Source: Bremia lactucae
Taxonomy: Eukaryota > Oomycota > Peronosporomycetes > Peronosporales > Peronosporaceae
DNA length: 64,000 bases
Assembly (NCBI RefSeq): GCF_004359215.1
Contig: NC_090610.1
Location: forward strand, 9,416,674-9,480,673
Direction: 5' to 3'
Both the position numbers and the translations under genes were made by a program. This document shows positions 1 to 38,779 of this stretch, piece by piece (position 1 is the first letter of the stretch; each line of letters opens with the position of its first letter). A model generated the notes under the pieces. The model was not told the DNA's origin. It saw only the letters and a program-made list of their open reading frames with translations, and searched no databases.

Positions 1-369
1 GAATATTTGGAAAATATTACTTTACATAGTAATATTCGGAAAGCTTATCTATTCGTAGATATATACCATTATATCTGCTTGCTTCACGGTCCAGTCAGCG
101 CTGGACCCGCGCGAAGAGAAAGGCAGATAAGACTTTTATTTCATGTTTTGGATTATTCTATAATTAAGTTAGTATCATATACATAGAAGCAGAAACACTT
201 AATTCTATTAATATAGTTTTCTTTTAACCGTCTTTAAAGCAAGTGCTATAAAGAGAGTCTTCCTTTGCGCATACTAGTGTACGTGAAGTGACGTCAGGCA
301 CCACTCGCACTGAGGTAGTGCGAAGATGACTTTTACTGAAGCAGTACAAGTTGGCAGTGCCCCGTTACA
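1..369 (+). repeat. G1 gypsy LTR, 5' end cut off by window edge
   Basis: The sequence aligns by eye along its length with the complete 435-bp G1 LTR at 36725-37159 and ends in the same CCCCGTTACA. About 65 bp of the LTR start lie outside the window. It contains the family's short hairpins near the end. It is the 5' LTR of the gypsy remnant that follows, because gag begins about 50 bp downstream in the same orientation. Confidence 0.85.
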
Positions 370-410
370 CTTGGTCGCACTTTGTTGTCCGTCCAAGGAC
401 CACAGTTCCA

Positions 411-436
411 TCATCTAACATGGACATGTTAGATGA
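411..436. promoter_or_regulatory. Perfect inverted repeat over the gag start codon
   Basis: Two 12-bp arms (411-422 and 425-436) separated by 2 nt form a perfect hairpin. The gag ATG (420-422) is the end of the left arm and the next in-frame ATG (426-428) is in the right arm. The same palindrome sits at the gag start of the G1 copies near 46237-46262 and 54648-54673, and a variant sits near 30158-30182 and 62878-62905 in the inverted-repeat arms. It could form an RNA stem at the start codon; function is not shown. Confidence 0.6.
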
Positions 437-683
437 TAATGGAAATACGCATCAAGTTTCCCGTGAAAACTACTCCTTTCTAAGTGACATAGAAAAGAGT
501 GCGGTCGAACGAATGAGTTCGACCGAAGGGAAAGATGCCATCTTGGCAATGCTGTCCAATTCGGACAGAAATGCCCTCCAATCAGCCATCGCAAAGTTCA
601 TACAACATGAACTTGACGAGACGAAGAAGAAGGTAGCCTTGCTGAATCAGCAAGGCTCCCAACAGGCAGAACTGTTGAGGTAA
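420..683 (+). pseudogene. G1 gag N-terminal fragment
   Basis: An 87-codon frame starting MDMLDD, rich in charged residues, with a predicted helical stretch ending in LLNQQGSQQAELLR. It is followed by an in-frame TAA. The same 87-codon block with the same TAA occurs at 45990-46253 and 54401-54664, so the start is taken as the conserved ATG at 420. After the stop, the same frame reads on into gag-like sequence for a short way. It is the matrix-side part of a gypsy Gag and is not functional here because the capsid part is deleted. Confidence 0.65.
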
Positions 684-862
684 CTACAGGTACAGACCCC
701 TGTATCTGGAATGACGCACACGCGTCGTCCCTAAACCTTTAAGATTGACATCTCTAAGTACAAGAAGTCGAAGAAGACTCCTTCCATTGGTGGTTTTTCG
801 AATTGGGCGATGCCATAACGTACGCCCAGTACCGAGAAGTACTGAACGTAATTATGGACTAA

Positions 863-1402
863 ATGCCAAAAAAGGCAACGGTCGCGGGTCCGATTTTGTT
901 GCAAAATTGCAACAGCGAAACAAACCGCCAAAAAACGTCGCAGTCAGTAGGGGCGCAAAGCCCTACTGATCCAGCAACCCCAAGAAAATTTGCGAATTTC
1001 TTGACTAAAATTTGTCCAGACACACAATCATTATGTGTCTCTGCACCTGGTGATGAGGTATCCCTCGTCACCTTAAAGATAAAAGTGACAAATGATTTGT
1101 CTCTGAGGGCCCTAGTGGACTGCGGAGCTTCGAATAACGTTATTCGTTGCCAGTCACTAGAGCGTCGTAGGCTCAAAAATGTTGAGCACGACATCCCTCC
1201 AACGAATATGACGCTGGGTATAGCGACAGGCGCATCGATAAGAGTAATGAAACGTGTAGCGAAATTTCACTACACGTTAAAAGATTTACAGTACGATGAT
1301 GATTTTATCGTACTGGACCCGGATGCCAAATCTATACCATCCTTAGTTTACCTTGGCACAGAAATTATGAGCCAAGAGTCAGCTTGCAGCATCGATCCGT
1401 AA
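863..1402 (+). pseudogene. G1 gag end and aspartic protease fragment
   Basis: The first part matches the G1 region after the zinc knuckle. The second half is a retropepsin-like domain: the catalytic loop reads LVDCGASNNVI (the oomycete gypsy variant of D-T/S-G) at about residue 86-96, followed by beta-strand-like segments and a later IVLDPDAKS. In the family this protease cuts the Gag-Pol polyprotein. The frame ends at a stop soon after the domain and the remaining pol is in other frames, so this is a remnant. Confidence 0.7.
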
Positions 1403-1858
1403 AGATGCCTGCCACTTGTTCATCAGATGGCCATCGGTTGAACGTCTTGGTGCGTCCACAAGCGTCTGACTGTACAACGAAGGAGTGCAACGGCCTCACT
1501 TGTGGTACGGTCGTTAGAACGACATCACAAGATCACAGTATGATAACTTATCACTCTGTCGAGTCAGCTGTTGGCGACTGTGCGAATGCATAGACAGCGC
1601 TGAAGGTCTACCACTCGAATAAGTCGAGTGAATTAAGACATGAATGTACGCCTAGCGGGCGACATTCAAGGAAGAAAATGGTTGTCCAAAAAAGAACACA
1701 CCATGACCCTAGGTTGAGTTATGAGACGACCGTAGAATACCCACTGAGATAGCGCAATCAAACTCGGAAGACGTTGAGGAAAAGAGTCCCCACGAACTTG
1801 AGGAAAAATCTCCTCAAATAGTTAATGCTGAAGTGACCAGACTTCAAGATCCCGAGGA

Positions 1859-2660
1859 TTGATCCCTCGGCAGCCTGTGGATAAATATCAAGAAGAAACC
1901 GAGACATTGAATGTCTTAGTCAATGACGGATCTAGAGTAGGCGCTTATACTCTTGATCTGTATGCGCCTCCGAAGTTAACTTTGGAGAAAACTCAATTTT
2001 TAACCCTAGAACCTAAGCGGTTCTTACGAGATCTGCGTAGTGGTATAATCAAGCTGATCTGCGTTCTCGTCAAAGAGGACGATTACGTTACCGACAATCG
2101 GTCAGCGGTAATTTTTGCAGAGAACGAATGGGTTCTCAGAATCTCATCGATAGACGAAAGTGGTCTCGATGTGAAGCGTCGGATTGAGAGATATACTACT
2201 TAATCCTGGCAGCCACTTAGGACAAATCATTTATAAAAATACTTGATTGAACTCAGGGATGTGTTCCCTGAAGCAGTCCCATGCGAGTTGCTTAAGGATA
2301 AAGGCACTCGACATGAGATCGAGTTCAAACCGGGCTCGTATTACTCTGTCATAAAGCAGTGGCCACTGCCTTGTGATCAAGTACTTGCGATCGATAAATT
2401 CTTTACCGATCGATTAAAAGCGGGCCATGTAAGGGAGTCAATCTCCCCATATAGGAGGGTGTTGGATAGTGCACGCATTCAATAAACTGAATGCTGCAAC
2501 GGTACCACCTTAAACGCCGATACCTAGAAAAGACGTAATCATAGATGGTATGTATAAGGGTACCATCTTTGCGTCTATGGATCTGATGAATGAATTTCAT
2601 CAAATCCTTATGCGTGAACGGGACATCCTGTACACAGCAGTGAGCCCCCTCCGTGCTCTA
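1859..2660 (+). pseudogene. G1 protease-RT linker and start of reverse transcriptase
   Basis: Two adjacent frames (1859-2203 and 2243-2485) match the G1 pol segment upstream of and into the RT fingers: RDVFPEAVPCELL, then H-E-I-E-F-K-P-G, then VIKQWPLP, typical of the entry to a Ty3/gypsy reverse transcriptase. The next 170 bp continue the RT in broken frames, including sequence matching a SMDLMDGFYQI-type segment. No catalytic DD is present because the element is deleted beyond about 2690. Confidence 0.7.
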
Positions 2661-2689
2661 AAAATGGCTAGTTGTGCCACAGGGGCTTA

Positions 2690-2935
2690 GTACGCCAATT
2701 TGCCATCAACAGTTCAGTGCATGCTCCGACAAATCATACACCATTTTTCGTGAATAGCTTATGCCACTCACATATACCTACCCGGTGTGAGTGTAACTCT
2801 AAATTAAGGGGTGTGACTTACTCGAGCAAAGAGACTTTTAGCTTTCGCTCCTCAATCATTAGTCCCTTGGTTAGTGCGAAGAAAACCAATGTTGAGCCAG
2901 CTAAAATTGAAGTAAACAACGATGCTAACTGACTC
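2690..2935 (+). pseudogene. Gypsy integrase C-terminal remnant
   Basis: One frame reads FAINSSVHAPTNHTPFFVNS, matching the conserved integrase segment FAINNSVHASTTHTPFFVNG of the copy at 31617-32039. It is joined directly to the broken RT, which marks a pol-internal deletion. Downstream the sequence loses similarity. Confidence 0.65.
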
Positions 2936-5365
2936 AGCTTCGAAAACAGTACTATTAATGATATTGATATACTCTCAATAATGAAGAGAATATAATCTCC
3001 AGAGTGCGAGCCGGTCGCACTGAAATCAAAAATAAAACCGAGTCAGCAGGTGATTTCACAAGAATCTGCGGGAAAAAGTCCCGGAGCCCCGTGGTCAAGG
3101 TTCTCAAGTACCTTTTGATATAAGTTCCAAAGAGGAATCCCAGAAGCTCGAGCGCCATCTGTAGCGAATTCGGGACACACGAATTCTCATTGCCGTAACG
3201 GGGCACTGCCGACTTGTACTGGGTTCAGTACAAGTCCACTTCGCACTGCTTGAGTGCGACCAATACATTAATGAATTCAATCAAATCTTTGTAAAAAGGA
3301 ACGGGAGGTCGTGCGTATTACTAAAGTGGTACAGACACGAACTCAGCCTTCGTCTGTACTCGCAACATCTGTTCTTACGTCCCAATTTAGTGTGTCCACA
3401 TCAATGTGCAACCAACTTTTTGCTGACAAGTGCCTTCAGTTCGGCCTTTATCGCTTTTATCTCCTCTCATAATAATTATAATAGATAATTCACAAATCTC
3501 TTGACGAAAGTTTCTCCAGACACACATGGGTAAATTCGGGCGGCCAAATCACGTTCGGCAATCCGAAATGGGCGCGCGTACGGGGATTCCAGCTTTCTGC
3601 GGAATTTTAGTAGTTAACTATTATAAAATAGGATAAAAGAGTATCTACCAATAAAGTAAATATACCACAACAACGGTTCTCCATATGATGAAGTTGAGCG
3701 AGCTAATGGGGAAGGGTATTTGCGCTGTTATGCATGACTTGGTAACCCTGACTCTTAAGACAAACGGTGCAGCTTGCAGCGTGCACAGTACTACTGCGAA
3801 TAGCGTGATGACATAATTCAGTCATCCGTCTGTGCCACCTGCAAAAATAATATGTAAAAGGCAGCTACAAGATAATTATACAAGGCAAAGCTGCTGCGAT
3901 GCCTTATAAGCATCCTCTCCGCCTTTCCATTTTTTTGCTTGGTTACGCGGCTCGCTTATTTGTCGCTGTTCACGCTTAAGCTCATCCTGAGTCTATATCG
4001 CTTCGCCTGTCGCGCTCCAAAGAAGCGCTCCTGAAGCAACACTTCGTTGTTTGGCGGCTGGTTTAAGGCGCGAATCTTTGCCTTAAAGATGGGCATCAGC
4101 ATGACAACGTGCCCGATGCTGTAGTGGCACTTTACGTGTCCAGCGGAAGCGACTCTAACCACGCTAGTGTCGTCGTAAAGGCACTTGTTGCGGTGGTGGC
4201 TGTTGCTGCTGCGTATTTGTGTGCAATGAGGTAAGAGACCTCTCCTTCTTTATACTTCATAACTTTTTTGTGGTCCCGATTGTTTTACAAGTTTGAAGAC
4301 CCCTTGCTTTTAGTACTTGAAGGTCCCGCTTTTTATTTCGCCATCTCGACCGGAGAATTTGAAGAATCTGATGCTGCAGGTGGCCACTAGGGCTTCGAGG
4401 ACTGGACTGTATGCGTTGGTAGTGTGAAGTAACTAGCTCGTAATTGCAAATTAGAGCCAATAGGTATGCGTAAATTTGATCGAGCACTGGATAGGCGGGC
4501 ACATATCCGTTGTCTCGAAGCATGCTGCCTTTGGACCACAGTTCCTCGCAATAGGATAAATTCACATATTTGCCAAGTCGCCTGTGCGCATTTTCAGAGT
4601 GGCTTACCAAACATAAGTCCAGACTTATTGATTTCCATAAATCCGTTGGATTTGATAGCGGCTTCAGTGACGCACTGCTGGACGGTGCAGGCCTAAATTT
4701 TCTTTCCGTAAAGCTTTGCGGCTAAGGGTGCGTTTCATCGTCAATTGAAGCGGCCAATGTCGTGTTTTCAGTGGGACAAATTTCGAAAACGTTCAAGTCA
4801 GCGATGAAATTGAGCGACGCGGAATAGTGCAAAGCTGCGTGCGACTCCGCAATAGTCGTACCGTGCTATCTTTTTCAATGTTTGAGATCACATGTTAGAC
4901 ACTGAATCTAGATTTATACCGGTACTTACACATTTCATTCTTCAGACCTACACTGAGGCCGTAGCGAGGAAGCTCGGCCGACGAGGTCTGGCAGAGAATT
5001 GTTTTTCTCTACATCAATCTCATCATGACATAAGCGGTTCTTCCTTGGCAGATGAAAAATTTTCGGTATTGCATATAAACTGCTTCTTAACGGCATTTCT
5101 ACTCGGAGCTTGATAGAGAACGGCAACAGAACAACGCGGTAAAATCACGGACCTTCTGCCAGCGTCATCCGTCTGGCGAATTCCCATTGTACTTAATCGG
5201 CGTGACAGCGAATATTTGGCTACCAGACGTTCATTTAGCGAAAGGCACGCTCGTTGTCACTTTCCAACGACGTTGTGTGTCATCATCAAATCCATAGCTT
5301 ACCCTACCTCACGTAGAATTGGCTCACGCTAATGTTGCCAAGCTCGTGATATATATGCCTGTGTG
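2936..5365. other. No intact gene; scattered LTR and gypsy fragments
   Basis: A reversed G1 LTR fragment lies at about 3193-3258, with a G1-like duplicate of the integrase/RT region near 3260-3310. A G3 LTR end is at about 3600-3695 (ATACCACAACAACGG). A segment near 4000-4050 is the reverse complement of sequence at about 58370-58420 in the right inverted-repeat arm. Open frames here (for example 4257-4610 minus, 117 codons) have no recognisable domain or conserved copy. The remainder is unassigned. Confidence 0.5.
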
Positions 5366-8643: not shown

Positions 8644-8685
8644 TTCTGGAATGACACAGATTAAGTGTTCTGTGTCATTCCAGAA
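8644..8685. repeat. Perfect 17-bp inverted repeat, 8-nt loop
   Basis: Arm 8644-8660 (TTCTGGAATGACACAGA) and arm 8669-8685 are exact reverse complements around the loop TTAAGTGT. There is no following T-run, so it is not a simple terminator. It lies at the left boundary of the integrase remnant. Confidence 0.85.
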
Positions 8686-9709: not shown

Positions 9710-9746
9710 ATGTTTCAGTAGACGCTATTAGCGTCTACTGAAACAT
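9710..9746. repeat. Perfect 16-17-bp hairpin
   Basis: Arm 9710-9725 (ATGTTTCAGTAGACGC) and arm 9731-9746 are exact reverse complements; the 5-nt centre TATTA allows one more pair. Function unknown; located in the 3' region of the gypsy remnant. Confidence 0.85.
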
Positions 9747-17330: not shown

Positions 17331-17529
17331 TATAATGAACTATACGTGTTCAAGCCCAAACAAAGTTTTGAGCTTGTCATAAGCTGCGCGTTGCTTCTTA
17401 AAGTTCTGGAACGCCTCCATTTCAGTGAAGGCTTCGTCTTATAAAAGACTCAGGCATAGATTGACTACGAATGCCACTAAATGTAGCGGAGCTTCCTCGC
17501 TCCTAAAGTCAGAAGAAGACATTTAGACT

Positions 17530-17534
17530 CAGAG
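17530..17534. repeat. Target-site duplication CAGAG of the copia insertion (copy 1, left)
   Basis: CAGAG lies directly before the copia 5' LTR and recurs at 20980-20984 and, after the 3' LTR, at 26070-26074. With copia removed, the flanks rejoin into a continuous G3 LTR comparable to 11738-12203. Confidence 0.85.
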
Positions 17535-17801
17535 TGTTGGAAGGCGATGCTGCAGCGGAGTTTCTGGGACTCGCAAGGAGTTTCGAAACGTCTTTTATTG
17601 TAATGGTCACGGAGCGGTGGTTACGGCGAAAGATGAAACGATCCAAGGTCGAGAGGTTTCAAGAAGTATGAGGTGCAAGTAACGCACGATGGACAGGTAA
17701 TTCTGACAAGAAGAGAGTTAAGGCTTACATGCATAATATATTCACTTTGTCTTTTGCAAAATGGCACCCATGGAAATTCAATCTGACGTTCAACACCAAA
17801 A
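17535..17801 (+). repeat. Copia 5' LTR, copy 1 (267 bp)
   Basis: Begins TGTTGGAAGG, a common copia LTR start, and ends CAACACCAAAA; the end is set by the target duplication after the 3' LTR and by the primer site. It does not end in the usual CA. The gag ATG at 17761 lies inside the LTR, 41 nt before its end, as in yeast Ty1. Confidence 0.85.
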
Positions 17802-20173
17802 GGTTATGAGCCCAACGCCAAAGGATCAAGAAGGTCATGTCCAAGCGCCAGCCATCACCCAAGTCGACGACGACAGAGCCAGTACGGCTTCTGGCGCGGA
17901 CGAGGGCATGGCCAGGCTGCTGGAACTGATAACGGACTTGAAAGGAGACATGGGAGCTCGCCTTAATAGGCTTGAGGCCCGCCGAGTCGAGGATGATCAA
18001 GGTTCAGTCGTGTCAGCCGGTAGCAGCACCTTCCGTACGTATGCGGAAGCGCGCACCGGATTCGGCCGGAACATGACGATGGCCTCGCTCGAAGACGAAG
18101 TCATGCCTGGACCAGCGCGGCAACACGCAGCAGGACCAGGGCAACAAAGGCTGGCTGGAGGGAGAGCCGGTGTAGGTCCAGTTCCTCAGGTGCCACGGGA
18201 ATCGGCTTTCAGACCGGTTCCTACACCAGCGTATTTTGCTCCGCAAAGGCCCCTGCAGATCAGGGACCTAAAACTAGCGATCGAAAACTTCGATGGCAAG
18301 GAGGTTTATCCAGGACTAGGGTCGGGATTCGCACCTTGGGGGAAGCGATTTCTACGCCAAGTTCGTATCGCCGAGGAACTTAGTGGGTGCATCTGGACCG
18401 AGGACATCAAAATGGATGTACTTGGTCGGTATTTGACAGGCAAGGCTGGTCAACATTTTCACAGTCAAGTGGATACATGGTACACCGAGAATCCACAGAT
18501 ATGGTACTCGATGGACCGTATGAACCTCAAGTTTGGACCTAGGATCTCAAGGTCACAAGCTTTTAAACTGTTCACGTGTAAGAAAAAGGAGTCGATGTCG
18601 TGGAATGATCATATGCTCTATCTAATGGCGGTCAGCGACGCAGTCGGAGGCGCACAAGACCAAGTGCTTGAAAATATAGCCAAGTACGCATGCTTCGCAA
18701 CCGACTTTCAAGGTGTGCTTCTCGCAAGGTACAATCCTCATCGAGAGGATTACTTACGGCAAGCTGAAGAGTTGGTGAATTTTGCCCAGTTAAATGACCC
18801 GGGTATTCGCATTGGGTCCAAGTCAACTGTGGCCGTCGTCAAAGGCACTGAAGGAGGTCGGCGCAGAAACGATAAAGAGAGAAAAGTCAAGAAGACTGGA
18901 GCGTGTTTCAAGTGTGGAAAAGAAGGCCACTACAAACGTGAATGTACTAGTGAGCCTAATAACAACTTTACGTTAGCTGTCTCCGACGGCATTGACTCTA
19001 CCAGCCAATGGATACTGGACAGCGGGTCAAGTCGACATTTGGTGACAAAGGCGTCACAGCTAATCGACGCAGTAAAATGCGACGAAGAGTGTTTACTTCC
19101 TAATGGGGACAGCTTGCGTATGCAGCTCAAGGGTACGGCCGAGTTCGTGGTCAGTGTTGACGGCGAAATTCGCCGAGTCAAACTACTCGATGCGTACTAC
19201 GCAGAAAAGCTACCGTTTAACATCATATCCTATGGCAAGATCGAGGAGCGAGGGTTTGAACTTCGTTACGATGGACATAAGCGATCAGTGGTTCGGCGGC
19301 GTGATGGTTGCAAGATTTTTGATGTTGACAAAGACGACAGCAACGTGTTGCTAGTGAATGTTGTTGACACAATTGAGCACAAGGATTTTTTTACGGTTGC
19401 AGCAATTGCTGAGGCTGTCAACACGCCGATTTCGGACCTTCAGATGGGGAGTCTACTCGATTTTCACTTAAGATTTGGACACCTCGCCTATGATACAATC
19501 GAATTGATGGCGAGTGATCCATCGAGTGGAATAAGGCTAACAGACACCGAGCGACCCACTTGCTTAACGTGTGCGCAAGGTAAGCAGCGCCGCAACAAGC
19601 AGTCGAAGAAAGACACGGGTGAGAATGCTCCTATCGATAGGGTGGGTGGTGTGATATGCAGCGATATCAAAGGTCCAATAACGCCGGTCGACAGGTCGGG
19701 AAACCGATATTTAATTAATTTTATCGACCACAAGAGTAACTACTGCCGGGTATTCCTCGCCAAGACGAAGGACAAGGCGACTAAGCATTTCGAAGACTTC
19801 ATGGTCTACTTTGAAAAGCGATTCAACTGCAAGGTTCACTATCTCCGTACGGATGGAGGCGCCGAGTACAAAGTTGTTGACCCGTTTTGTAAGAATGTGG
19901 GTGTGCGTCGCCAGGTTTCAGAAGCTGACAACCAAGCATCCAACGGAAAAGCGGAAAGGATGCACCAGACATTGATGAACCTGGTGCGATCAATGATTTT
20001 CGGTTCAGGACTCCCGTTGAGCTTCTGGGGTGATGCTGCTGAGTACGCAGCCTACATACTCAACAGAAGCCCAACGCGGAGTAACGTGGGGCGTGCATCA
20101 CCTATTGAGGTGCTTACAGGTATCAAACCCAGGCTAACTGATATTGTTATATTTGGATCGCCGTGTACCGCTA
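17761..20173 (+). CDS. Copia gag-pol polyprotein, N-terminal 804 codons (gap-truncated)
   Basis: Open frame from the ATG at 17761 to the gap. Order: Gag capsid-like region (about 170-350); zinc knuckle C-X2-C-X4-H-X4-C at 382-395 (CFKCGKEGHYKREC); aspartic protease with DSGSS at 420; GAG-pre-integrase with FHLRFGHL near 566; integrase core with catalytic D635, D698 and E732 (33 residues between the last two) and NGKAERMHQT around the glutamate. The product would form a virus-like particle and integrate the cDNA. RT and RNase H are lost in the gap in this copy but present in copy 2. Start choice: first ATG, in the LTR; an in-frame ATG three codons later is an alternative. Confidence 0.85.
17802..17818 (+). 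promoter_or_regulatory. Copia primer-binding site for half initiator tRNA-Met
   Basis: GGTTATGAGCCCAACGC directly follows the LTR. Its complement, GCGTTGGGCTCATAACC, matches the anticodon stem-loop (CAT anticodon) of eukaryotic initiator tRNA-Met. Drosophila copia is known to prime from an internally cut tRNA-iMet in this way. The same site is at 21252-21268 in copy 2. Confidence 0.75.
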
Positions 20174-20831: not shown

Positions 20832-20984
20832 AGCTGCGCGTTGCTTCTTAAAGTTCTGGAACGCCTCCATTTCAGTGAAGGCTTCGTCTTATAAAAGACT
20901 CAGGCATAGATTGACTACGAATGCCACTAAATGTAGCGGAGCTTCCTCGCTCCTAAAGTCAGAAGAAGACATTTAGACTCAGAG

Positions 20985-21251
20985 TGTTGGAAGGCGATGC
21001 TGCAGCGGAGTTTCTGGGACTCGCAAGGAGTTTCGAAACGTCTTTTATTGTAATGGTCACGGAGCGGTGGTTACGGCGAAAGATGAAACTATCCAAGGTC
21101 GAGAGGTTTCAAGAAGTATGAGGTGCAAGTAACGCACGATGGACAGGTAATTCTGACAAGAAGAGAGTTAAGGCTTACATGCATAATATATTCACTTTGT
21201 CTTTTGCAAAATGGCACCCATGGAAATTCAATCTGACGTTCAACACCAAAA
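20985..21251 (+). repeat. Copia 5' LTR, copy 2
   Basis: Same boundaries as copy 1, shifted by 3450 bp. It includes the gag ATG at 21211. Confidence 0.9.
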
Positions 21252-22128
21252 GGTTATGAGCCCAACGCCAAAGGATCAAGAAGGTCATGTCCAAGCGCCA
21301 GCCATCACCCAAGTCGACGACGACAGAGCCAGTACGGCTTCTGGCGCGGACGAGGGCATGGCCAGGCTGCTGGAACTGATAACGGACTTGAAAGGAGACA
21401 TGGGAGCTCGCCTTTATAGGCTTGAGGCCCGCCGAGTCGAGGATGATCAAGGTTCAGTCGTGTCAGCCGGTAGCAGCACCTTCCGTACGTATGCGGAAGC
21501 GCGCACCGGATTCGGCCGGAACATGACGATGGCCTCGCTCGAAGACGAAGTCATGCCTGGACCAGCGCGGCAACACGCAGCAGGACCAGGGCAACAAAGG
21601 CTGGCTGGAGGGAGAGCCGGTGTAGGTCCAGTTCCTCAGGTGCCACGGGAATCGGCTTTCAGACCGGTTCCTACACCAGCGTATTTTGCTCTGCAAAGGC
21701 CCCTGCAGATCAGGGACCTAAAACTAGCGATCGAAAACTTCGATGGCAAGGAGGTTTGTCCAGGACTAGGGTCGGGATTCGCACCTTGGGAGAAGCGATT
21801 TCTACGCCAAGTTCGTATCGCCGAGGAACTTAGTGGGTGCATCTGGACCGAGGACATCAAAATGGATGTACTTGGTCGGTATTTGACAGGCAAGGCTGGT
21901 CAACATTTTCACAGTCAAGTGGATACATGGTACACCGAGAATCCACAGATATGGTACTCGATGGACCGTATGAACCTCAAGTTTGGACCTAGGATCTCAA
22001 GATCACAAGCTTTTAAACTGTTCACGTGTAAGAAAAAGGAGTCGATGTCGTGGAATGATCATATGCTCTATCTAATGGCGTCAGCGACGCAGTCGGAGGC
22101 GCACAAGACCAAGTGCTTGAAAATATAG
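21211..22128 (+). pseudogene. Copia gag, copy 2, first segment before frameshift
   Basis: The frame is nearly identical to copy 1 up to LYLMA. At about 22080 one base of the GCGGTCAGC of copy 1 is missing, which throws the frame into a stop at 22128. The Gag capsid-like region is present; zinc knuckle and everything after are in the next frame. The reading break would prevent a full Gag-Pol. Confidence 0.8.
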
Positions 22129-23189
22129 CCAAGTACGCATGCTTCACAACCGACTTTCAAGGTGTGCTTCTCGCAAGGTACAATCCTCATCGAGAGGATT
22201 ACTTACGGCAAGCTGAAGAGTTGGTGAATTTTGCCCAGTTAAATGACCCGGGTATTCGCATTGGGTCCAAGTCAACTGTGGCCGTCGTCAAAGGCACTGA
22301 AGGAGGTCGGCGCAGAAACGATAAAGAGAGAAAAGTCAAGAAGACTGGAGCGTGTTTCAAGTGTGGAAAAGAAGGCCACTACAAACGTGAATGTACTAGT
22401 GAGCCTAATAACAACTTTACGTTAGCTGTCTCCGACGGCATTGACTCTACCAGCCAATGGATACTGGACAGCGGGTCAAGTCGACATTTGGTGACAAAGG
22501 CGTCACAGCTAATCGACGCAGTAAAATGCGACGAAGAGTGTTTACTTCCTAATGGGGACAGCTTGCGTATGCAGCTCAAGGGTACGGCCGAGTTCGTGGT
22601 CAGTGTTGACGGCGAAATTCGCCGAGTCAAACTACTCGATGCGTACTACGCAGAAAAGCTACCGTTTAACATCATATCCTATGGCAAGATCGAGGAGCGA
22701 GGGTTTGAACTTCGTTACGATGGACATAAGCGATCAGTGGTTCGGCGGCGTGATGGTTGCAAGATTTTTGATGTTGACAAAGACGACAGCAACGTGTTGC
22801 TAGTGAATGTTGTTGATACAATTGAGCACAAGGATTTTTTTACGGTTGCAGCAATTGCTGAGGCTGTCAACACGCCGATTTCGGACCTTCAGATGGGGAG
22901 TCTACTCGATTTTCACTTAAGATTTGGACACCTCGCCTATGATACAATCGAATTGATGGCGAGTGATCCATCGAGTGGAATAAGGCTAACAGACACCGAG
23001 CGACCCACTTGCTTAACGTGTGCGCAAGGTAAGCAGCGCCGCAACAAGCAGTCGAAGAAAGACACGGGTGAGAACGCTCCTATCGATAGGGTGGGTGGTG
23101 TGATATGCAGCGATATCAAAGGTCCAATAACGCCGGTCGACAGGTCGGGAAACCGATATTTAATTAATTTTAATCGACCACAAGAGTAA
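22113..23189 (+). pseudogene. Copia gag end, protease and integrase start, copy 2
   Basis: Continues copy 2 in the shifted frame: zinc knuckle (CFKCGKEGHYKREC), protease DSGSSRHLV, GAG-pre-integrase FHLRFGHL, and the first integrase aspartate in CSDIKGP. At about 23171 one extra A relative to copy 1 causes a second frameshift and the frame stops at 23189. Confidence 0.8.
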
Positions 23190-23226
23190 CTACTGCCGGG
23201 TATTCCTCGCCAAGACGAAGGACAAG

Positions 23227-25758
23227 GTGACTAAGCATTTCGAAGACTTCATGGTCTACTTTGAAAAGCGATTCAACTGCAAGGTTCACTATCTCCGTAC
23301 GGATGGAGGCGCCGAGTACAAAGTTGTTGACCCATTTTGTAAGAATGTGGGTGTGCGTCGCCAGGTTTCAGAAGCTGACAACCAAGCATCCAACGGAAAA
23401 GCGGAAAGGATGCACCAGACATTGATGAACCTGGTGCGATCAATGATTTTCGGTTCAGGACTCCCGTTGAGCTTCTGGGGTGATGCTGCTGAGTACGCAG
23501 CCTACATACTCAACAGAAGCCCAACGCGGAGTAACGTGGGGCGTGCATCACCTATTGAGGTGCTTACAGGTATCAAACCCAGGCTAACTGATATTGTTAT
23601 ATTTGGATCGCCGTGTACCGCTATTCAGACACCAAAACACAAGGCGCTGGATAGACGTGGAGAAGCGGGATTGATACTCGGGAAGAACGACGAAGTTAAA
23701 GGTTTTCGCGTGTTATTTACTAAGGATCGTGTGGTACGCACAACACAGCATGTGCAGAATATCAAGACGCTGAGTGAAGACGCAAATGCACAACTTCATC
23801 GTCTGACAGATGGCCAATCAGAACATGAAAGCTCATCAGCTAATTCCTCGATTTCGATGGATGAGAACAGATCCAGTCCTGCTGATTTGGCGACTACAAG
23901 TGCAAGTCTAAAGTCTATCGAGACTGACGAATTCTTTGATACCCAACAGACCGATGTAGATCATCGGAAGGAGCCACGTGCCTGTACAAATCCACAAATG
24001 TCACGTGGTAAGCGCGGCGGGCAAGGGAGGTGGTCGAATACCAAGATAATCGCCGAGACACCACGCATGACAACGCGATACGGTGGTAATAAGATACCTC
24101 CACGTGAATTTGTTGGAGCAACTTACCGCGTGGATCCAAGTAATTGGAACATGGCTATGAAGAGTGACAAGCGCGTGGAATGGGAGCGCGCTGCAAGCGC
24201 TGAAATTGACTCGCTGGAAGCAAATGATACGTGGGAGTTGGTTCCACGAACTCAGGAGATGCGACCACTCCATACCAAGTGGGTCTTCAAAACGAAGACG
24301 GATGCCGATGGTAACATCGAGCGTTACAAGGCACGCATGGTAGCGTGTGGCAACGAGCAGTCGTTCGGCAAGGACTATACCCTGACTTTTGCCGCAGTAA
24401 TGGATATGACGACCGGGAAAGTCATTTTGGCACTGGCTCAGATATGGGGAGTTCCAGCAAGACACGGAGACGTACCTAATGCGTACGTGAAGGCGTCTAC
24501 GGAGCCGGACCTCAATATCTATTTGTACGTCCCGCAGGGAATGCAAATTAGCAAAGAAGAAACTCAGCGACTTGGTGTTGAAACCGCAGGTCAAGTGGTT
24601 CTTCAGCTCAAGAGAAGTCTATATGGGCTAAAGCAAGCCGGGAGACTATGGTCTCAGCTTCTACACTCAGAGCTACTTCGAGTTGGATTTGTGCAGTGTG
24701 TGAGCGACTCGTGCCTTTACTTTAAAGTAAATGGTGACGATAGAACGGTCGTGGGGGTATATGTCGACGATTTGCTGATTACAGGGACGTCTGAGGGGCG
24801 AGTGGAAGAAGTATTTGATCTCCTTGTAACGCTGCAGATAAAGAATCTGGGTGCTGTCAGCAAATTTCTGGGCATGAGAATCAGTTACTCGGATGAGTGT
24901 GGATACGAAATTGATCAAGAAGCTACTATCATCGAGATGCTGATAAAGTTTGGATTACAAGATGCGCACTCGGTGATGACGCCAATTGGACTTGATCACG
25001 ACAATAATACGCACGAGGTGGATACACTACTACCTAAAGAGGGCGTGGTTGGATCTGCATCGGTGCAGAATTTCCAGTCGATTGTTGGATCGCTTTTATG
25101 GCTGGCTCGCTGTACGCGTCCGGATGTAGCATATGCCGTACATCGAGCAACTCGGCGAGCTCATGCGCCGACGACGAGCGATTGGCAGCTAGCCAAACGA
25201 ATTGCTAGATACCTAAAGGGTACTAAAGATGTCAAGCTTCGCTTAGGACGACGAAAAGGTACAGAAAGATCGATTGTACAACTCACTAGCACAAGTGATG
25301 CAGACTTCGCCGATGATAAGAGCGATAGGAAGTCAGTGAGCGGTGCTATATTTCGTGTGGACGGTATGATGGTGGGTTGGACCTGTCGGAAGCAGACGAC
25401 CGTCTCACTGTCAACAATGGAAGCTGAATTCACGTCTGCATCGCATGCTGGACAAGAACTACTAGGCCTACGTGAGCTTTTATCCGAGTTGGATTTTCTC
25501 GTGAAGTTAACCATGACAATGGAAATGGATAACCAAGCGGCCATCCGGCAGATGGAAAATGAAGAGAGCTCGGCACGCGCCAAGCATATTGATATCAAGC
25601 TCAAGTTTATTAAGGACTACGCTAAGAAGGGAATTATAAAACCCAGCTTTGTGTCAACTGAGGCGATGACAGCAGACATACTGACGAAGGCATTTAGCGC
25701 CACTCGCCTGCGGGCACTAATGGAGATGTGCTCATTGTACCGCAGCAAGATGGACTAA
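23227..25758 (+). CDS. Copia integrase end, reverse transcriptase and RNase H (843 codons)
   Basis: A long open segment with no own ATG at its start; it is the third part of the broken gag-pol. Integrase second aspartate (LRTDGGAEY) and glutamate (GKAERMHQ) come first. RT (RVT_2 type) starts at WVFKTKTDADGNIERYKARM and carries the catalytic YVDD at residues 512-515 (24760-24771). RNase H of copia type follows: SDADFADDKSDRKSVSG, then STMEAEF and DNQAAI, ending HIDIKLKFIKDY and ADILTKAF, which are hallmark copia C-terminal motifs. Stop TAA at 25756-25758. Function in the family: cDNA synthesis and RNA removal. The upstream frameshifts probably silence it unless supplied in trans. Confidence 0.85.
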   Translation: MTKHFEDFMVYFEKRFNCKVHYLRTDGGAEYKVVDPFCKNVGVRRQVSEADNQASNGKAERMHQTLMNLVRSMIFGSGLPLSFWGDAAEYAAYILNRSPTRSNVGRASPIEVLTGIKPRLTDIVIFGSPCTAIQTPKHKALDRRGEAGLILGKNDEVKGFRVLFTKDRVVRTTQHVQNIKTLSEDANAQLHRLTDGQSEHESSSANSSISMDENRSSPADLATTSASLKSIETDEFFDTQQTDVDHRKEPRACTNPQMSRGKRGGQGRWSNTKIIAETPRMTTRYGGNKIPPREFVGATYRVDPSNWNMAMKSDKRVEWERAASAEIDSLEANDTWELVPRTQEMRPLHTKWVFKTKTDADGNIERYKARMVACGNEQSFGKDYTLTFAAVMDMTTGKVILALAQIWGVPARHGDVPNAYVKASTEPDLNIYLYVPQGMQISKEETQRLGVETAGQVVLQLKRSLYGLKQAGRLWSQLLHSELLRVGFVQCVSDSCLYFKVNGDDRTVVGVYVDDLLITGTSEGRVEEVFDLLVTLQIKNLGAVSKFLGMRISYSDECGYEIDQEATIIEMLIKFGLQDAHSVMTPIGLDHDNNTHEVDTLLPKEGVVGSASVQNFQSIVGSLLWLARCTRPDVAYAVHRATRRAHAPTTSDWQLAKRIARYLKGTKDVKLRLGRRKGTERSIVQLTSTSDADFADDKSDRKSVSGAIFRVDGMMVGWTCRKQTTVSLSTMEAEFTSASHAGQELLGLRELLSELDFLVKLTMTMEMDNQAAIRQMENEESSARAKHIDIKLKFIKDYAKKGIIKPSFVSTEAMTADILTKAFSATRLRALMEMCSLYRSKMD

Positions 25759-26074: not shown

Positions 26075-26490
26075 ACTCTCAATTCTATAGAACTAATGGT
26101 TCTAGCATTTTAAAGGGCGGTAGAAGCTATTAAAACTTTATGAATCCTAGTTCAAGGGATTAGGGGTTCGTAGAACCAATTGGCAACAAGTGCCCTAGAG
26201 TATTCACCTTAGAAAGGCTTCTATCTCTTACAGTTTAATGCGCAAGCCTTAGGAAGGCACTTAACGCGTTAATATCAAAAAAGGAACTGCACTTTAATTA
26301 TTCAATCTAAAACTTTACCCTAGCTAATTTAAGAATAGATTTGGCTCCAAATTTATATCTCGCGGAGATTTGTTGCTCATAATAAATGAGATTAAAGTAA
26401 TTAACATTTTAGATTAGGATTAAAGAGTATTTTACCCATAAGGTAAATGTAATACAACAACGGTTCTCCAACCCGATGTAGCCCGTTACA
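26075..26490 (-). repeat. G3 LTR, larger part of the 5' LTR split by copia
   Basis: Continues the G3 LTR interrupted at 17534/20984. It ends AACCCGATGTAGCCCGTTACA-like at 26490. The homologous LTR in opposite orientation is at 56016-56242. Confidence 0.75.
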
Positions 26491-26677
26491 TGTAACACAA
26501 ACGATATTTATATTGACCTTTAGCAATCAACAGCTTGATTCGTGCCTAATTGCAATGGCGCTCCGTCGGCGAAACCATTACTTATCTTGTCAAAAAGCGA
26601 ACTTTCGTCGTTCTCACAATTACTGGTAAAAGCATGTGATACTTTGCGCGCATAGAGCTTATATAACCCGCAGCCGT

Positions 26678-28405
26678 TTAATTTGGTGGTGGGTTTTCAT
26701 GATTATATGCCACCAATTCATTAGCAAATCTTTGCAAAGCTAGATCGTTATGTGTTTTACATTCCATAAAGACTTTCTGTAAAATTGGAAATTGGAGGAT
26801 TCCAAATACATATCTCGCTCTGGCTTTAAATCCCTCTGTAAATTTAATCCAGCAATACCATGATCCGATTTGAATTAAAAAGTTTTTATGAAGCTTGAGC
26901 CGAGTAAACAAATTTGCTGCTGCGTTTAGCATAATGTTTTTCGGCTTATTTATGTCAAGTAGCTCCAATTGTACTTCATTCAAAGCGAATTTTGGATATT
27001 TATAATTCAGGTAATCTTTCATTGCCTTCTTCACCAAAATTTGGACAGCCTCAGCCTCTTCATTGCGTACACAAGCGAATTCCATCCAAAATTGAAATAA
27101 TCGATTCTCGTACATCGAAAAATTGATTTTACCAAGTTCAAGCGAACCGAGAAAGATATGCAACTTCAAGCTTTTCCAATGGTCTTTTTGCAGATGCAGC
27201 AAAAGAAGCTGATTGGATTCCAAGCCGTTCGCCGCAGATTGTAGCGCTTTCTGACACCCTCCGGAAACTCTACTTAACCAATCAAGACAATCAATCTGCA
27301 TATCCGGCGAGCTTTGCGTGATGTACAGCAAATAGAGCCTGGTGGTCGGTGAGTTGAAGAACGCGGGATCCATCGGGTTTCTGAGCTGTAGTAGCTCGCG
27401 GACTTGCTCCTGTAAACAATGTCTGAACCAACTCTCAATCAGCTCCTTTTCCAAGTTCGTACCAACCAATTTAACAACTGGAACTCCCTCTGATGCTGCT
27501 AAAAGCAATTCTGCGAGTTGGTCAAAACCCAGCTTGTACTTCAGCTCGCGCAGCAATATTTGATACGACGCAACATCTCCATAATCATTGATGATAGTAT
27601 TCTCCACATTCTTATGACCATACTTTTTCAAATACTTCAGATCGGGCTTATTATCTGTCAGATCTGACGGGTCAATATCGAATTCCTTGTGCCAGTTGTT
27701 TAACCGTTCCACTAGAAGACGCATGCCAATGTTGTCGCCATATCTAATAAGTTTACTCAGTTTCTCAGTTTCATGCGAGTAAGTCTTTTCAAGCTCCACA
27801 CTCAGCACTTGGTAATTGATGCTAGGGTTAGCATCGAGAAATCTTTTTAGCAACGGATCTTGTAAAAGGTTGGGGTCTTTTAGATCGAACTCAGCAAGCT
27901 TGGGGACGGCATCCGTAAATCGTTTGTTCTGGCGATGTAACAAATCATTATGAGTTGACACCGTCATCACTTCTTTATCTGGAACGTCGATAGCTTCAGC
28001 AATAGTTCTCGTCTTTTTATTCGCATTTGCGTGATTTATTCCGGATTTTGAAAGCGCTGCCTCTCCATGTTCGTTATTCTCACTCCAGTAAGGTCTTTTT
28101 TTCGGAATCCGCGATAGGTTAATCACACTTGCTTCGTTAACCGCCTCGTCATAGTTATCTAAATCTATGACAACCTTCGAAACCGCTTTCACAGCTCTTT
28201 CGGCTAGATCTTCCACATCCTTGATAATGTTTGTGTAGTCCATTCTCTCCTCGACGCGGCTCGGAGATTCTTCCATTTTGGAAGGCAAGCTTATTGCACG
28301 AGAAGCTGCAGCCCCTTCTATAGCGGCGGCTTCGAATATTGACAGCAGGGAAGAGGCATATACGAGTGCAACAGCGTGGAGGTAGGTCAAAATCTTGGTA
28401 ATCAT
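26678..28405 (-). CDS. Candidate secreted EER/WY-type effector protein
   Basis: The frame is open from 28522, but I choose the ATG at 28405 because the 575-residue product then begins with a signal-peptide-like segment (MITKILTYLHAVALVYASSL, cleavage expected near the following AAA/SRA). An EER motif (SRVEER) lies at about residues 50-54, where RXLR effectors carry dEER; no RXLR is present. A basic patch IPKKRP at about 99-104 could be a nuclear signal. The C-terminal half is helical with two WY-like units: LKLHIFLGSLEL ... YENRLFQFWMEF (about 411-442) and LFTRLKLHK ... WYCWIKF (about 498-521), plus weaker similar units near 180-190 and 347-360. No transmembrane helix after the signal. Oomycete WY/LWY effectors are delivered to plant cells; that role is inferred from family. 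A truncated paralogue is at 55147-55858. An unrelated secreted helical protein cannot be excluded. Confidence 0.6.
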   Translation of the reverse strand: MITKILTYLHAVALVYASSLLSIFEAAAIEGAAASRAISLPSKMEESPSRVEERMDYTNIIKDVEDLAERAVKAVSKVVIDLDNYDEAVNEASVINLSRIPKKRPYWSENNEHGEAALSKSGINHANANKKTRTIAEAIDVPDKEVMTVSTHNDLLHRQNKRFTDAVPKLAEFDLKDPNLLQDPLLKRFLDANPSINYQVLSVELEKTYSHETEKLSKLIRYGDNIGMRLLVERLNNWHKEFDIDPSDLTDNKPDLKYLKKYGHKNVENTIINDYGDVASYQILLRELKYKLGFDQLAELLLAASEGVPVVKLVGTNLEKELIESWFRHCLQEQVRELLQLRNPMDPAFFNSPTTRLYLLYITQSSPDMQIDCLDWLSRVSGGCQKALQSAANGLESNQLLLLHLQKDHWKSLKLHIFLGSLELGKINFSMYENRLFQFWMEFACVRNEEAEAVQILVKKAMKDYLNYKYPKFALNEVQLELLDINKPKNIMLNAAANLFTRLKLHKNFLIQIGSWYCWIKFTEGFKARARYVFGILQFPILQKVFMECKTHNDLALQRFANELVAYNHENPPPN

Positions 28406-28522
28406 TAGGATATCTTCTTCGCCCGTAAGTTGTAAAGTGTAAATTATGTGGCTGTAATCAAATACCGGTCGACGCCTGATTGACTTAAATGAATTTTCAA
28501 TCTCGTCTTTTAAGCCAACCAT

Positions 28523-29059
28523 GCAATGCTGTCTACTTCTTAAATATCTGTAACAAAACCTAAAATAAGCCGAGATATCCAGAAAAAGTTTAAAGCAGCA
28601 GCGCTTAGGCCATTACCAATCAAATTCCGTGCTCGGGATTATATGCTTTCCTTCTGACACATCCTGCGAAACCGGCAAACGTGATTTGCATGGTCCTGAA
28701 CGCGAGTCGACAATCGGTGGTGCACTTTCGCAAGCGATAGATTGCAAAGTATCGCCTTAATCGAGCACACCGTAACGAACGAGCTTAGTTGCCCTAATGT
28801 TCCACAGTCCCCGTAAAGTACACTTGGTGTACTTAAGGGGATGGTCAAATACTAAATTAAAGTAATTAGACCCAGCACTCGGTGTGGTACACATTTGTGA
28901 CCAACCCTTGTGTATGTGATGCACATGGGTGCATTCATATTAGGAGGGATGACGCCTAGCGTCATCCATTACGCGAAAGATATGCTCGCAATACATATTA
29001 AGTGTTATCTATAGAGATAACATTTTGATTGGTAAAAATAGGTATTTATATTTAATACG
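28523..29059. other. Intergenic DNA upstream of the effector
   Basis: Contains a 69-codon minus frame at 28639-28848 without recognisable features. A short hairpin GGATGACGCCTAGCGTCATCC is centred at about 28959. A promoter for the effector should lie in the left part, but I see no clear oomycete initiator. Confidence 0.4.
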
Positions 29060-29607
29060 ATTAAATATAGATCAGTCTGAAAACTTCTTGCTACTTGGTA
29101 AGTGCGCACGAGGAGCCGGATTCCGCTCCCGTGACGACACTTAACCGAAGTACTTAGTGCGTTGGGTGAGGTCGCTAACGCGCCCACCACAGCTACCTCA
29201 CTGCACACGAGAGAAGCTGGTTAAACCGTTTCCTTGCTGTGCTAGGGTGTGTGTCTAAGTAGAGCGTGGCCGCATTACGACGTGCCCGCCTACACCGTAT
29301 AAAAGATCATGCAATTGATGATTGCAGTTGCGTTCGTCAGACCCAAAGGGCTTCATCATTCCCTCTCAGACTATAGTGCCTGAAGTGCTCACGACTGGAA
29401 GGGTTCATCAGACATACGATCTGATAATCCCATCTCAGGATGGTCGCGCTACAGGAATTATCATTTACCGAAATAATCAAACGAAATTCTTCTGCCAGAT
29501 CGGTGTCTATGCAGACTCGATAATATTATTGAGTTTATACAGAATCAGAGCCAATACCAGTTTCGCAGTACTTTTTCGAGCACGAGATTGGTTTCGGCGC
29601 CGCTGCG

Positions 29608-30112
29608 TGTTACGGGTTACATAATTATTATCCCTATAAGAGGACTAGTACATATTATTTCCCATGAGAGGAAATAAATTAAGAAGTGCAAAATTATTAC
29701 CTTTATTTATTTTGACCTAAATAGTTCCAATAAACCAAATCTGGTATTATTGATGCAATAAAACGTTAGCTCTATTGATTGATTTATTTAAGTATAAATC
29801 AACCCCGCCAATCTATTAAAGACACGATTGTGCGGTGCGCAAGGAGGCGCCATACTTAGTTAGATATAAATATTTTAAGTTCAGTAGTAGATAAAAAGGC
29901 GTTAGGTAGAAAACTAATTATACTAATACAGTTTTACTTTTTCCTTATTCGAAATACATTGAATTACCTTTGGTAGCCAAAGACCCTTTGCTACCTAGAA
30001 ACCCTCCCCTATCCTCTTGTATACGTGAAGTTTTGAGGGACCCAACCTACACTGTAATCGATGTAACGTTAACTAGTACTTACCAGTGCTATTGAAAGGT
30101 GCCCCGTTACAC
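29608..30112 (+). repeat. G2 gypsy LTR (5' LTR, left arm)
   Basis: Begins TGTTACGGGTTACATAATTA and ends GGTGCCCCGTTACA, 505 bp. Followed by CTCATAGCAATTCGTAGTCC, a degraded primer-binding site, then gag. The right-arm copy is 62948-63451. Confidence 0.75.
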
Positions 30113-30510
30113 CTCATAGCAATTCGTAGTCCGTTCAACGACCTGCGCACGTTTGATCCAACATTGACATGTTGGATATAGAAAGAGGGGGCTTTCACCC
30201 CCTTGAGAAGGCTATCACGCCACGCGCAAACGGTTTACTCCTTTGAGTGACGTCGAATGAAGAGCGAGCCTACACGTGCCGAATTTCAGGGCTCGAGCCG
30301 AGCTCCTGGATTTGCAGCAGAGCAAGCGTGACAATCACGCTTATCTTCAACATACACAATACCTGGTCAGTTGTATCGTTAGTCATCCAATAGATGAAGA
30401 AACACAGGTAACTGTGTTATTAAAGGTAGCAACGCTTGATGCAATCGCCAAGATGGGCGATTGCAGATCAAAACAGACCATTCCATGTGGTCTGTGACGC
30501 CAGCGATTTC
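30113..30510 (+). pseudogene. G2 gag fragment fused to RNase H by deletion
   Basis: After the palindromic gag-start variant (about 30158-30182) the sequence carries FRARAELLDLQQSKRDNHAYLQHTQYLVS, matching the Gag block FGARSELLNLKQGKRDAHAYAQHIRLYAS of G1. At about 30455 it jumps to IANQNRPFH-type RNase H sequence; zinc knuckle, protease and RT are absent. Confidence 0.65.
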
Positions 30511-30935: not shown

Positions 30936-30971
30936 AAAGCCTGAGCAGAAGATAAGTACCTTCTGCGTTTA

Positions 30972-32792: not shown

Positions 32793-32847
32793 TGGGTAGG
32801 ATGCGCGCCCTACCCCAGGGCGAAGAAAGAGAATAAAAATTCTCCTT

Positions 32848-33800: not shown

Positions 33801-33898
33801 GGTGATTCTGACCAATCAACACAGCTTTTATTTAAGTACTCTTATAGTGATTTCTTCATCTAATGACAGTCAGAGTGATTGTACGTTTAAGTGAAAGG

Positions 33899-35334: not shown

Positions 35335-35337
35335 TAT

Positions 35338-37720: not shown

Positions 37721-37806
37721 TCAGCCCTCCCTTAAACGACAATCACTCTGACTGTCATCGGATGGAGTGGTCACTATGTGACCACATAATTTTAAAATGC
37801 TGTTGA

Positions 37807-38770: not shown

Positions 38771-38779
38771 AGGGGATGA

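Follow-up and report, generated by a model that had tools for sequence, protein, structure and literature searches.

Several Ty3/gypsy retrotransposon families of Bremia lactucae carry dense, short, perfect hairpins, even within coding sequence

Genome-scale ordered RNA structure (GORS) is described in positive-strand RNA viruses, whose coding sequence folds to energies below those of shuffled controls (e.g., PMC3695492 and PMC7642675, both in excerpt). Among long terminal repeat (LTR) retrotransposons, the excerpted text of PMC11381356 presents the genomic RNAs of yeast Ty3 and Ty1 as mosaics, A-rich overall, with structured regions within coding sequence and stable regions of up to 30% of the RNA. 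Work on Sirevirus (copia) LTR palindromes and maize transposable element folds describes a short perfect stem with arms of 8 and a 3-nt loop, one abundant motif in a structure centered in the copia LTR (PMC10760457, in excerpt). Here, we examine Ty3/gypsy elements of the oomycete Bremia lactucae, whose assembly of 115 Mb includes 53.3 Mb of gypsy annotation (PMC6570648, in excerpt). We analyzed a stretch of 64,000 nucleotides (C1:9416674-9480673; hereafter the window), which begins with a decayed Ty3/gypsy copy that we call G1, and searched the assembly (115.9 Mb, 220 contigs). Several gypsy families hold about 10 times more short perfect hairpins than expected by chance, even within coding sequence.

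Of the known kinds, GORS is the closest, and the hairpin-rich gypsy elements appear to work like it without being members, as their carrier is an LTR retrotransposon and not an RNA virus. Their folding energy lies below that of codon- and dinucleotide-preserving controls (weakly so for family F against dinucleotide shuffles), and their structure extends over the coding sequence instead of being held in single signals. Compared with the excerpted descriptions of GORS, the gypsy format differs in consisting of short, nearly all-Watson-Crick, separate hairpins of family-specific length, with sense and antisense about equal. Ty3 shares its superfamily and life cycle with the Bremia elements, but the available portion of PMC11381356 does not describe closely packed perfect hairpins of 5-13 bp. 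Unlike the Sirevirus palindrome, as far as the excerpt of that work goes, the Bremia hairpins comprise 224 distinct sequences that run through the coding DNA of gypsy, not copia, elements, which rules out a single LTR motif of the Sirevirus type. Titles and abstract openings of the open-licence literature contained, among the matches listed, no report of short perfect family-sized hairpins in gypsy coding DNA.

We counted as perfect stems all inverted repeats with arms of at least 7 bp and loops of 0-13 nt, a definition that holds below unless another arm or loop range is named. Window positions 410-2602 contain 20 perfect stems, compared with 1.47 ± 1.18 in 1,000 dinucleotide shuffles (maximum, 6), and the arms take up 15% of the bases. 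The first 3.3 kb of the window, which make up G1, contain 30 stems versus 2.23 ± 1.38 in 30 dinucleotide shuffles, the number used for stretch-by-stretch counts. A first-pass annotation of this DNA had described G1 as full of short perfect inverted repeats, and the effect is larger than it claimed; its guess of about two stems in random sequence agrees with the shuffled mean. Among the 13 items that it listed, 12 are perfect stems or palindromes in place, the first with arms of 13 rather than 12 bp, and the remaining one (1049-1058/1063-1072) pairs over 10 bp with a single G-T. That list was incomplete, and further perfect stems lie, for example, at 502-525, 594-614, 635-657, and 2543-2568; stems absent from it are marked "additional" here.

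1-3300, plus strand: G1, a decayed, hairpin-rich Ty3/gypsy copy of family A, with an LTR-like left end, a gag-like start, a protease-like open reading frame (ORF), a reverse transcriptase region, and copies in its own genome
410-437, plus strand: hairpin, arms 13 bp (410-422/425-437), loop 2
502-525, plus strand: hairpin, arms 9 bp, loop 6; additional
594-614, plus strand: hairpin, arms 8 bp, loop 5; additional
635-657, plus strand: hairpin, arms 11 bp, loop 1; additional
897-914, plus strand: hairpin, arms 8 bp, loop 2
944-969, plus strand: hairpin, arms 9 bp, loop 8
981-1003, plus strand: hairpin, arms 7 bp, loop 9; additional
1018-1040, plus strand: hairpin, arms 7 bp, loop 9
1049-1072, plus strand: hairpin of 10 bp including one G-T pair (1049-1058/1063-1072), read from the letters
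1087-1101, plus strand: hairpin, arms 7 bp, loop 1
1131-1146, plus strand: perfect palindrome, 16 bp
1251-1278, plus strand: hairpin, arms 9 bp, loop 10, with pairing that nearly runs on inward
1289-1315, plus strand: hairpin, arms 9 bp, loop 9
1612-1630, plus strand: hairpin, arms 7 bp, loop 5
1798-1817, plus strand: hairpin, arms 7 bp, loop 6; additional
1902-1916, plus strand: hairpin, arms 7 bp, loop 1; additional
2253-2271, plus strand: hairpin, arms 7 bp, loop 5
2356-2369, plus strand: palindrome, arms 7 bp, loop 0; additional
2475-2494, plus strand: hairpin, arms 7 bp, loop 6
2543-2568, plus strand: hairpin, arms 8 bp, loop 10; additional
2584-2602, plus strand: hairpin, arms 7 bp, loop 5

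The protease-like ORF of G1 has an aspartyl-protease-like match in 863-1399 that falls under the Pfam cut-off, and we assign the putative gag-like start and reverse transcriptase region by homology to G2, a second copy in the window. Gypsy stretches of the window are enriched 7- to 14-fold in perfect stems over shuffles, with 35 stems versus 3.37 at 43.0-47.3 kb, 36 versus 4.73 at 50.6-56.2 kb, and 43 versus 4.9 at 28.6-34.8 kb. High counts also occur at 34.8-39.4 kb (31 versus 3.2) and 56.3-64 kb (40 versus 5.5), and the excess is weak at 3.3-7 kb (5 versus 3.0) and 7-17.7 kb (23 versus 8.1). The gypsy copies of the window hold protease, RVT_1, and H2C2 pieces and include the following.

43300-46740, minus strand: G2, a second hairpin-rich gypsy copy of family A, with about 80-82% identity to G1 in blocks and an RVT_1 match
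51100-55146, minus strand: G3, a third hairpin-rich gypsy copy of family A, with a retroviral protease (RVP_2) and similarity blocks
29060-33972, plus strand: hairpin-rich gypsy stretch of family B, with 36 stems, 8-bp helices at 31 versus 0.7, and Integrase_H2C2
37284-39383, minus strand: hairpin-rich gypsy stretch of family D, with 20 stems and 8-bp helices at 19 versus 0.5

Our survey covered the window and 78 genome loci (designated by L numbers, such as L046), with gypsy families named A, B, D, E, F, F2, and H; further families came from integrase matches, with scoring of the best 150 of 6202 candidates and retrieval of 25. The window copy of the queried piece with its flanks has 9.0 stems per readable kb, and its 29 genome relatives have 6.5-14.8, with 20 of the 29 above the window value. 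Of four 10-kb stretches picked arbitrarily from other parts of the assembly, three are enriched (67 versus 7.8; 45 versus 5.4; and 29 versus 2.2, the last with a readable part of only 2.0 kb) and one is hardly so (16 versus 9.4). No relatives of the elements were found in viral contigs.

Other element types and host sequence provide the contrast. Tigger DNA in the window has no stem excess (1 versus 1.7 and 1 versus 1.5), nor does an effector-like ORF (2 versus 1.6). Our host coding control, one recognizable host gene (Bin3/dsrm domains) and an adjacent ORF, has no perfect stems (0 versus 0.7 and 0 versus 0.3). The first-pass contrast with adjacent Tigger DNA thus holds, and the window copia is weakly enriched, by 1.8- to 2.7-fold (4 versus 1.5 and 5 versus 2.8). 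One copia ORF has 25 stems with arms of at least 5 bp and loops of 3-8 nt, versus 11.4 ± 3.5 after codon shuffling. Across 12 copia loci, loops of 3-8 nt show no excess of 5-bp (132 versus 143.5) or 6-bp stems (32 versus 37.4) and an excess of 7-bp stems (21 versus 7.8); for all stems with arms of at least 7 bp, L075-L077 are enriched 3.7- to 5.3-fold, L071 2.6-fold, and the remaining eight 0.9- to 2-fold. The refuting condition of the first-pass annotation, a density equal to that of other gypsy families, applies in part: long stems are few in families E and H, the latter being enriched instead in 5-6-bp hairpins.

Codon-preserving shuffles, which keep both the protein and its codon usage (40 per ORF for stem counts and 20 per ORF for folding energy), gave far fewer stems than the natural ORFs: 14 versus 2.60 ± 1.48 in family F (L046), 18 versus 1.30 ± 1.21 in family A (L060), and 7 versus 0.82 in a family B ORF. 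For family H (L061), stems with arms of at least 5 bp and loops of 3-8 nt number 30 versus 9.5 ± 2.7. Relative to codon shuffles, the sense folding energy reaches z scores of -10.5 in A, -7.5 in H, -5.0 in F, -4.4 in E, and -2.7 in F2, compared with -1.6 for copia, -0.5 for the effector-like ORF, and -0.2 for the host gene. Each gypsy family tested for energy (A, F, F2, H, and E, one ORF each) has codon-independent local structure, in differing formats. Mean z scores against dinucleotide shuffles are -0.70 (F), -0.96 (E), -1.60 (F2), -1.98 (H), -1.99 (B), -2.69 (G1), -2.89 (D), and -4.37 (A), so that family F is only mildly stable by this measure and codon shuffles reveal the effect more clearly.

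Strong enrichment is confined to inverted repeats, of which family A has 65, versus 2 mirror, 4 direct, and 6 complement repeats, and this rules out a general proneness to repeats. The 224 distinct hairpins have little sequence in common, though slightly more than shuffled arms: seven 6-mers are present in at least 4 of them, versus 0.84 expected, and the commonest, TCATCA, is present in 6, which rules out one shared motif. Known RNA families are likewise ruled out as the source, the window having 0 Rfam matches. The dinucleotide and codon shuffles exclude composition and codon usage as the cause. Little beyond the recurring 6-mers speaks for an origin in chance, in base or codon usage, or in a handful of shared motifs, and the shuffles, the other symmetries, the diversity of the hairpins, and the Rfam result all contradict such an account, which we consider practically negligible. 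The hairpin excess is real, strong, and not driven by codons or composition.

Hairpin anatomy suggests a strand that must fold back on itself. Stems are enriched only with loops no longer than about 13 nt, most of all at loops of 3-8 nt, as expected where a single strand must fold; families B, D, F, and F2 together have 9 stems with loops of 0-2 nt and 84 with loops of 3-8 nt, and family A has 17 and 47, respectively. Overlapping hairpin pairs are scarcer than under random placement, a null that may overestimate them because overlapping perfect stems may be intrinsically rarer: 2 versus 11.3 and 0 versus 9.4 in two A copies, 2 versus 5.6 in B, 1 versus 4.8 in F2, and 15 versus 34.5 and 13 versus 32.0 in H. 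In family E, whose stems are hardly enriched, the count is 15 versus 16.7. As a separate observation, the loop-closing pair, read 5' to 3', favors a 5' purine in A, B, D, F, and F2 (A-T 77 versus T-A 34; G-C 61 versus C-G 47) and is reversed in H (T-A 32 versus A-T 14; C-G 19 versus G-C 11).

Stem size is a family trait: H favors about 5 bp, F 8-9 bp, and A 7-13 bp. The family F copies (L042-L047, L062, and L063) are about 96.6-99.9% alike, and a 1058-aa frame is open across L046, with the Ty3/gypsy domain order of RVT_1 (12-176), RNase H (240-370), Integrase_H2C2 (501-558), and rve (578-672). Arms of 7 bp in family F number 4 versus 2.2 expected, those of 8 bp 8 versus 0.5, those of 9 bp 9 versus 0.2, and those of 10 bp 1, with none longer; a de-duplicated count in other copies, with loops of at least 3 nt, gives 7, 6, 10, and 1 hairpins of 7, 8, 9, and 10 bp. 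Family F2 (L040, L064, and L066), about 69% identical to F, has arms mainly of 7-9 bp (16, 13, and 5 hairpins, de-duplicated). Family E is also about 69% identical to F, yet it is almost without stems longer than 7 bp, although its rows L050 and L051 pass the arbitrary cut-off of 1 stem with arms of at least 8 bp per kb that we used for stem-rich rows on an integrase tree. That tree (36 rows) places A, B, and D in one supported clade, F and F2 in another, and E and H in others, with the order among clades unsettled. In family H, stems with arms of at least 8 bp are absent from L039 and L061 and number two in L038, and 5-bp stems with loops of 3-8 nt abound (33 versus 9.2 in L061, 37 versus 11.3 in L039, and 31 versus 10.7 in L038). 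Two other H loci, L048 and L055, have 1 and 2 stems with arms of at least 9 bp, and the distant H-like locus L065 shows no stem enrichment (4 versus 3.0).

Taken as a whole, we give a probability of about one half to the reading that Ty3/gypsy elements are under diffuse, genome-wide selection that keeps the single strand through which they replicate, in the simplest case the genomic RNA, folded into small separate hairpins. The folded strand would then be genomic RNA destined for packaging and reverse transcription, and the benefit may lie in compaction or packaging, or in protection of the RNA from nucleases or silencing RNAs, rather than in one specific signal. The stem length preferred by each family could reflect a balance between stability and unwinding by the ribosome and reverse transcriptase. 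Such selection best explains why loops are needed, why overlap is avoided and stem length bounded, and, as described below, why changes are symmetric and compensatory pairs occur in A and D-B. A further and speculative idea, which we think unlikely, is that each Ty3/gypsy lineage keeps its own hairpin format across the coding sequence for Gag/nucleocapsid or reverse transcriptase to read as dispersed, sequence-independent marks for packaging or copying, a second, shape-based code tuned per family.

Hairpin positions turn over while density persists, and they vary between families. When F stem pairs are traced into F2, 55-58% are unchanged versus about 45% of control pairs at two F2 loci, and 49% versus 44% at the third. 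Watson-Crick pairs with both sides changed are in excess in A (17/799; 0.021 versus 0.008 in controls, about 2.6-fold) and D-B (9/279; 0.032 versus 0.014), and slightly so in F-F2 (14/307; 0.046 versus 0.033). Stems have fewer transversion-type breaks than controls in A (0.060 versus 0.100), B (0.039 versus 0.101), D-B (0.090 versus 0.170), and D (0.108 versus 0.181), a deficit not seen in F-E or F2-E.

Template-switch (quasipalindrome) mutagenesis yields perfect inverted repeats with short spacers, and the gypsy hairpins have this same form. Under a mutational origin of this type, the reverse transcriptase of the element or a host polymerase would turn the nascent strand back on itself and copy a short run of bases from it, repeatedly perfecting imperfect hairpins; no benefit is needed, and density would reflect conversion versus decay. 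Fold-back copying best explains the perfect Watson-Crick, strand-neutral pairing and the slight complementarity past the arms in A and B, and it also requires short loops. Even pairing registers and arms that altered amino acids fit it as well, and overwriting of old copies by new ones could lower overlap. Pairing at the second to fourth positions past the arms, expected at 25% by chance, is modestly raised in A (80/259) and B (41/114), where stem edges are slightly soft, resembling patches in longer quasi-palindromes; it stands at 16/57 in D and 16/66 in G1, is near chance in F (21/72), and is at or below chance in F2 (17/102) and H (40/228), where stem edges are sharp.

The one-arm signature of such copying was sought three times and not found, which weakens the template-switch cause proposed in the first-pass annotation. 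In one F hairpin the left arm shows 0 derived changes and the right arm 3, but the asymmetry of derived changes across 14 hairpins of family F is at expectation (16 versus 16.6). Hairpins with at least 2 differences (n = 117) are more symmetric than chance (133 versus 164.7 ± 12.7), and the 47 hairpins broken at 3 or more pairs in a relative score 69 versus 84.1 ± 9.2, with 5 of the 47 one-armed. Two D copies (24 hairpins) score 23 versus 33.8 ± 5.4, and the test above 85% identity comprised 13 hairpins only. Lineage differences on both arms thus speak against one-arm copying. The pile-up of F arm lengths at 8-9 bp, followed by a stop, and the difference between such close families as F and E also disfavor a mutational origin, which we regard as possible but rather improbable.

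Several observations weigh against selection for folded genomic RNA. No compensatory excess occurs in F-E (3/121), F2-E (3/138), H (4/618), B1-B2 (0/155), or D1-D2 (5/269; 0.019 versus 0.017); an earlier F-E count had looked enriched (13/117; 0.111 versus 0.057), and the DNA-aligned count does not repeat that excess, which we attribute chiefly to a single site that changed several times. In E, conservation is lower for stem pairs than for control pairs, whether traced from F (0.421 versus 0.480) or F2 (0.370 versus 0.463). Arm codons are not clearly better kept in the protein (0.51 versus 0.62 against E L053; 0.79 versus 0.72 against F2 L066). Stems fall evenly into all three pairing registers with respect to the reading frame, so third-position changes alone did not make the hairpins. 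Sense and antisense strands fold about equally well; the antisense is better by 3.1 ± 1.1 kcal/mol in B and worse by 3.3 ± 1.3 in copia. Stems with one internal G-T do not clearly outnumber those with one A-C (F, 7/4; F2, 6/4; A, 27/21; B, 8/11; D, 9/5; G1, 8/15; 40 versus 29 summed over A, F, and F2), and among stems with at least 7 pairs A-C predominates (13 versus 23 in the window A copies and 55 versus 79 in the A loci). Many more helices with one G-U would be expected if G-U served as well as a Watson-Crick pair. De-duplicated F-F2 changes (21 G-U versus 12 A-C; P = 0.16) lean toward RNA, short of significance. Loop asymmetry, whether in G or A, is below significance in A, the largest family, as well as in D and F.

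The same strand evidence bears on selection acting on single-stranded cDNA, in which minus- or plus-strand hairpins would limit misannealing, self-recombination, or attack on single-stranded DNA during reverse transcription. With no clear preference for G-U over A-C and both strands folding alike, this account and a mutational origin each retain a share of probability, and the 3-8-nt loop preference suits single-stranded DNA as well as RNA. On the sense strand, G is scarce in the loops of F2 (P = 0.013) and H (P = 0.006), and A is abundant in those of B (P = 0.043) and copia (P = 0.017), with de-duplicated counts in seven families and uncorrected P values; such weak sense-strand asymmetry in some families counts against cDNA. 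Copia also passes through cDNA, yet most copia loci are unenriched, as the 5-bp stems at the 12 loci above indicate, and we know of no such requirement for single-stranded DNA hairpins. We consider cDNA selection unlikely. Twenty family A copies, mostly decayed, have 18 G-U and 17 A-C changes and say little on selection, since later mutation is symmetric and decayed copies are uninformative on the strand. The first-pass interpretation is supported in part. Selection for structured genomic RNA, one of its suggestions, is favored by codon-shuffle energies, loop-size limits, overlap avoidance, and the compensatory excess in A and D-B; the strand-specific signs (G-U tolerance and sense versus antisense energy) show no clear preference either way.

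Within coding sequence, the 14 stems of L046 are spread along 3174 nt of open frame. For the integrase peptide AHPETDGQ, F and F2 share one 8-bp stem, whereas in E different codons spell the identical peptide and leave no 8-bp stem; the hairpin is thus made by codon choice in a fixed peptide. At the GANKLAP/GASKLAP/GSSKLLP site, a near-perfect hairpin, read from the letters by us, arises from different bases in F, F2, and E. Other hairpins accompany amino acid changes (VVIPADDD and SKMVHFA). Such amino-acid-changing arms, the lack of arm-codon conservation, and the use of all registers indicate a pressure or process that goes past silent sites.

Hairpins abundant in high-copy elements could also be miRNA-like precursors that feed element silencing, and miRNA-like folds of maize LTR elements correlate with small RNAs (PMC10760457, in excerpt). 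Nearly all arms here are 5-13 bp, and only 5 perfect stems in the window and the 78 loci exceed 13 bp, 3 of them with at least 20 bp and none of them in G1; this survey covered perfect stems, and mismatched stems were not taken to 20 bp or more. Known Dicer substrates need longer stems, of about 20 bp or more. A Dicer-type substrate, the third cause proposed in the first-pass annotation, therefore does not fit arms that rarely exceed 13 bp, and we judge a host small-RNA or processing substrate very unlikely. The long perfect arms, which stand apart from the usual short stems, lie at window 8644-8685 (17 bp) and 9710-9746 (18 bp), at L055:1964-2029 (31 bp), and at L019:20-77 and L020:3464-3521 (23 bp each).

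The window also contains duplications. A long inverted duplication joins 29060-36498 and 56343-64000, whose blocks, 3735, 1460, and 2027 bases in length, run in opposite directions and are 97.8-99.4% identical, and related end blocks recur at 1-369, 33973-34341, 36794-37159, and 37284-37642, not delimited as LTR pairs of single copies. Tandem copia copies at 17382-20173 and 20832-23623 are 99.5% identical over 2793 bases, with a run of N between them. A Tigger-like transposon with a Tc5-type DNA-binding domain is duplicated together with a gypsy block (40723-44324 and 48421-52013; 96.6% identity). On the minus strand, 26678-28612 holds a 644-aa ORF without a Pfam match that, in our reading, resembles a secreted oomycete effector, and 26269-27392 recurs in part at 55146-56242 (88% identity). 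Outside the window, the host ORF at L034:4371-5333 has a Bin3-type methyltransferase match, with a double-stranded RNA-binding motif upstream in frame.

These results suggest that strand shape matters as well as the encoded proteins in these gypsy families. If the hairpins are selected, they would limit synonymous and even amino acid choice strongly and measurably, a constraint that to our knowledge is not usually considered in retrotransposon annotation, and the young, high-copy gypsy families of B. lactucae would lend themselves naturally to the question of why retroelement RNA must fold. If they are mutational, the rate of copying errors would be high enough to reshape coding DNA. Selected or mutational, the result bears on why some RNA genomes are globally folded.

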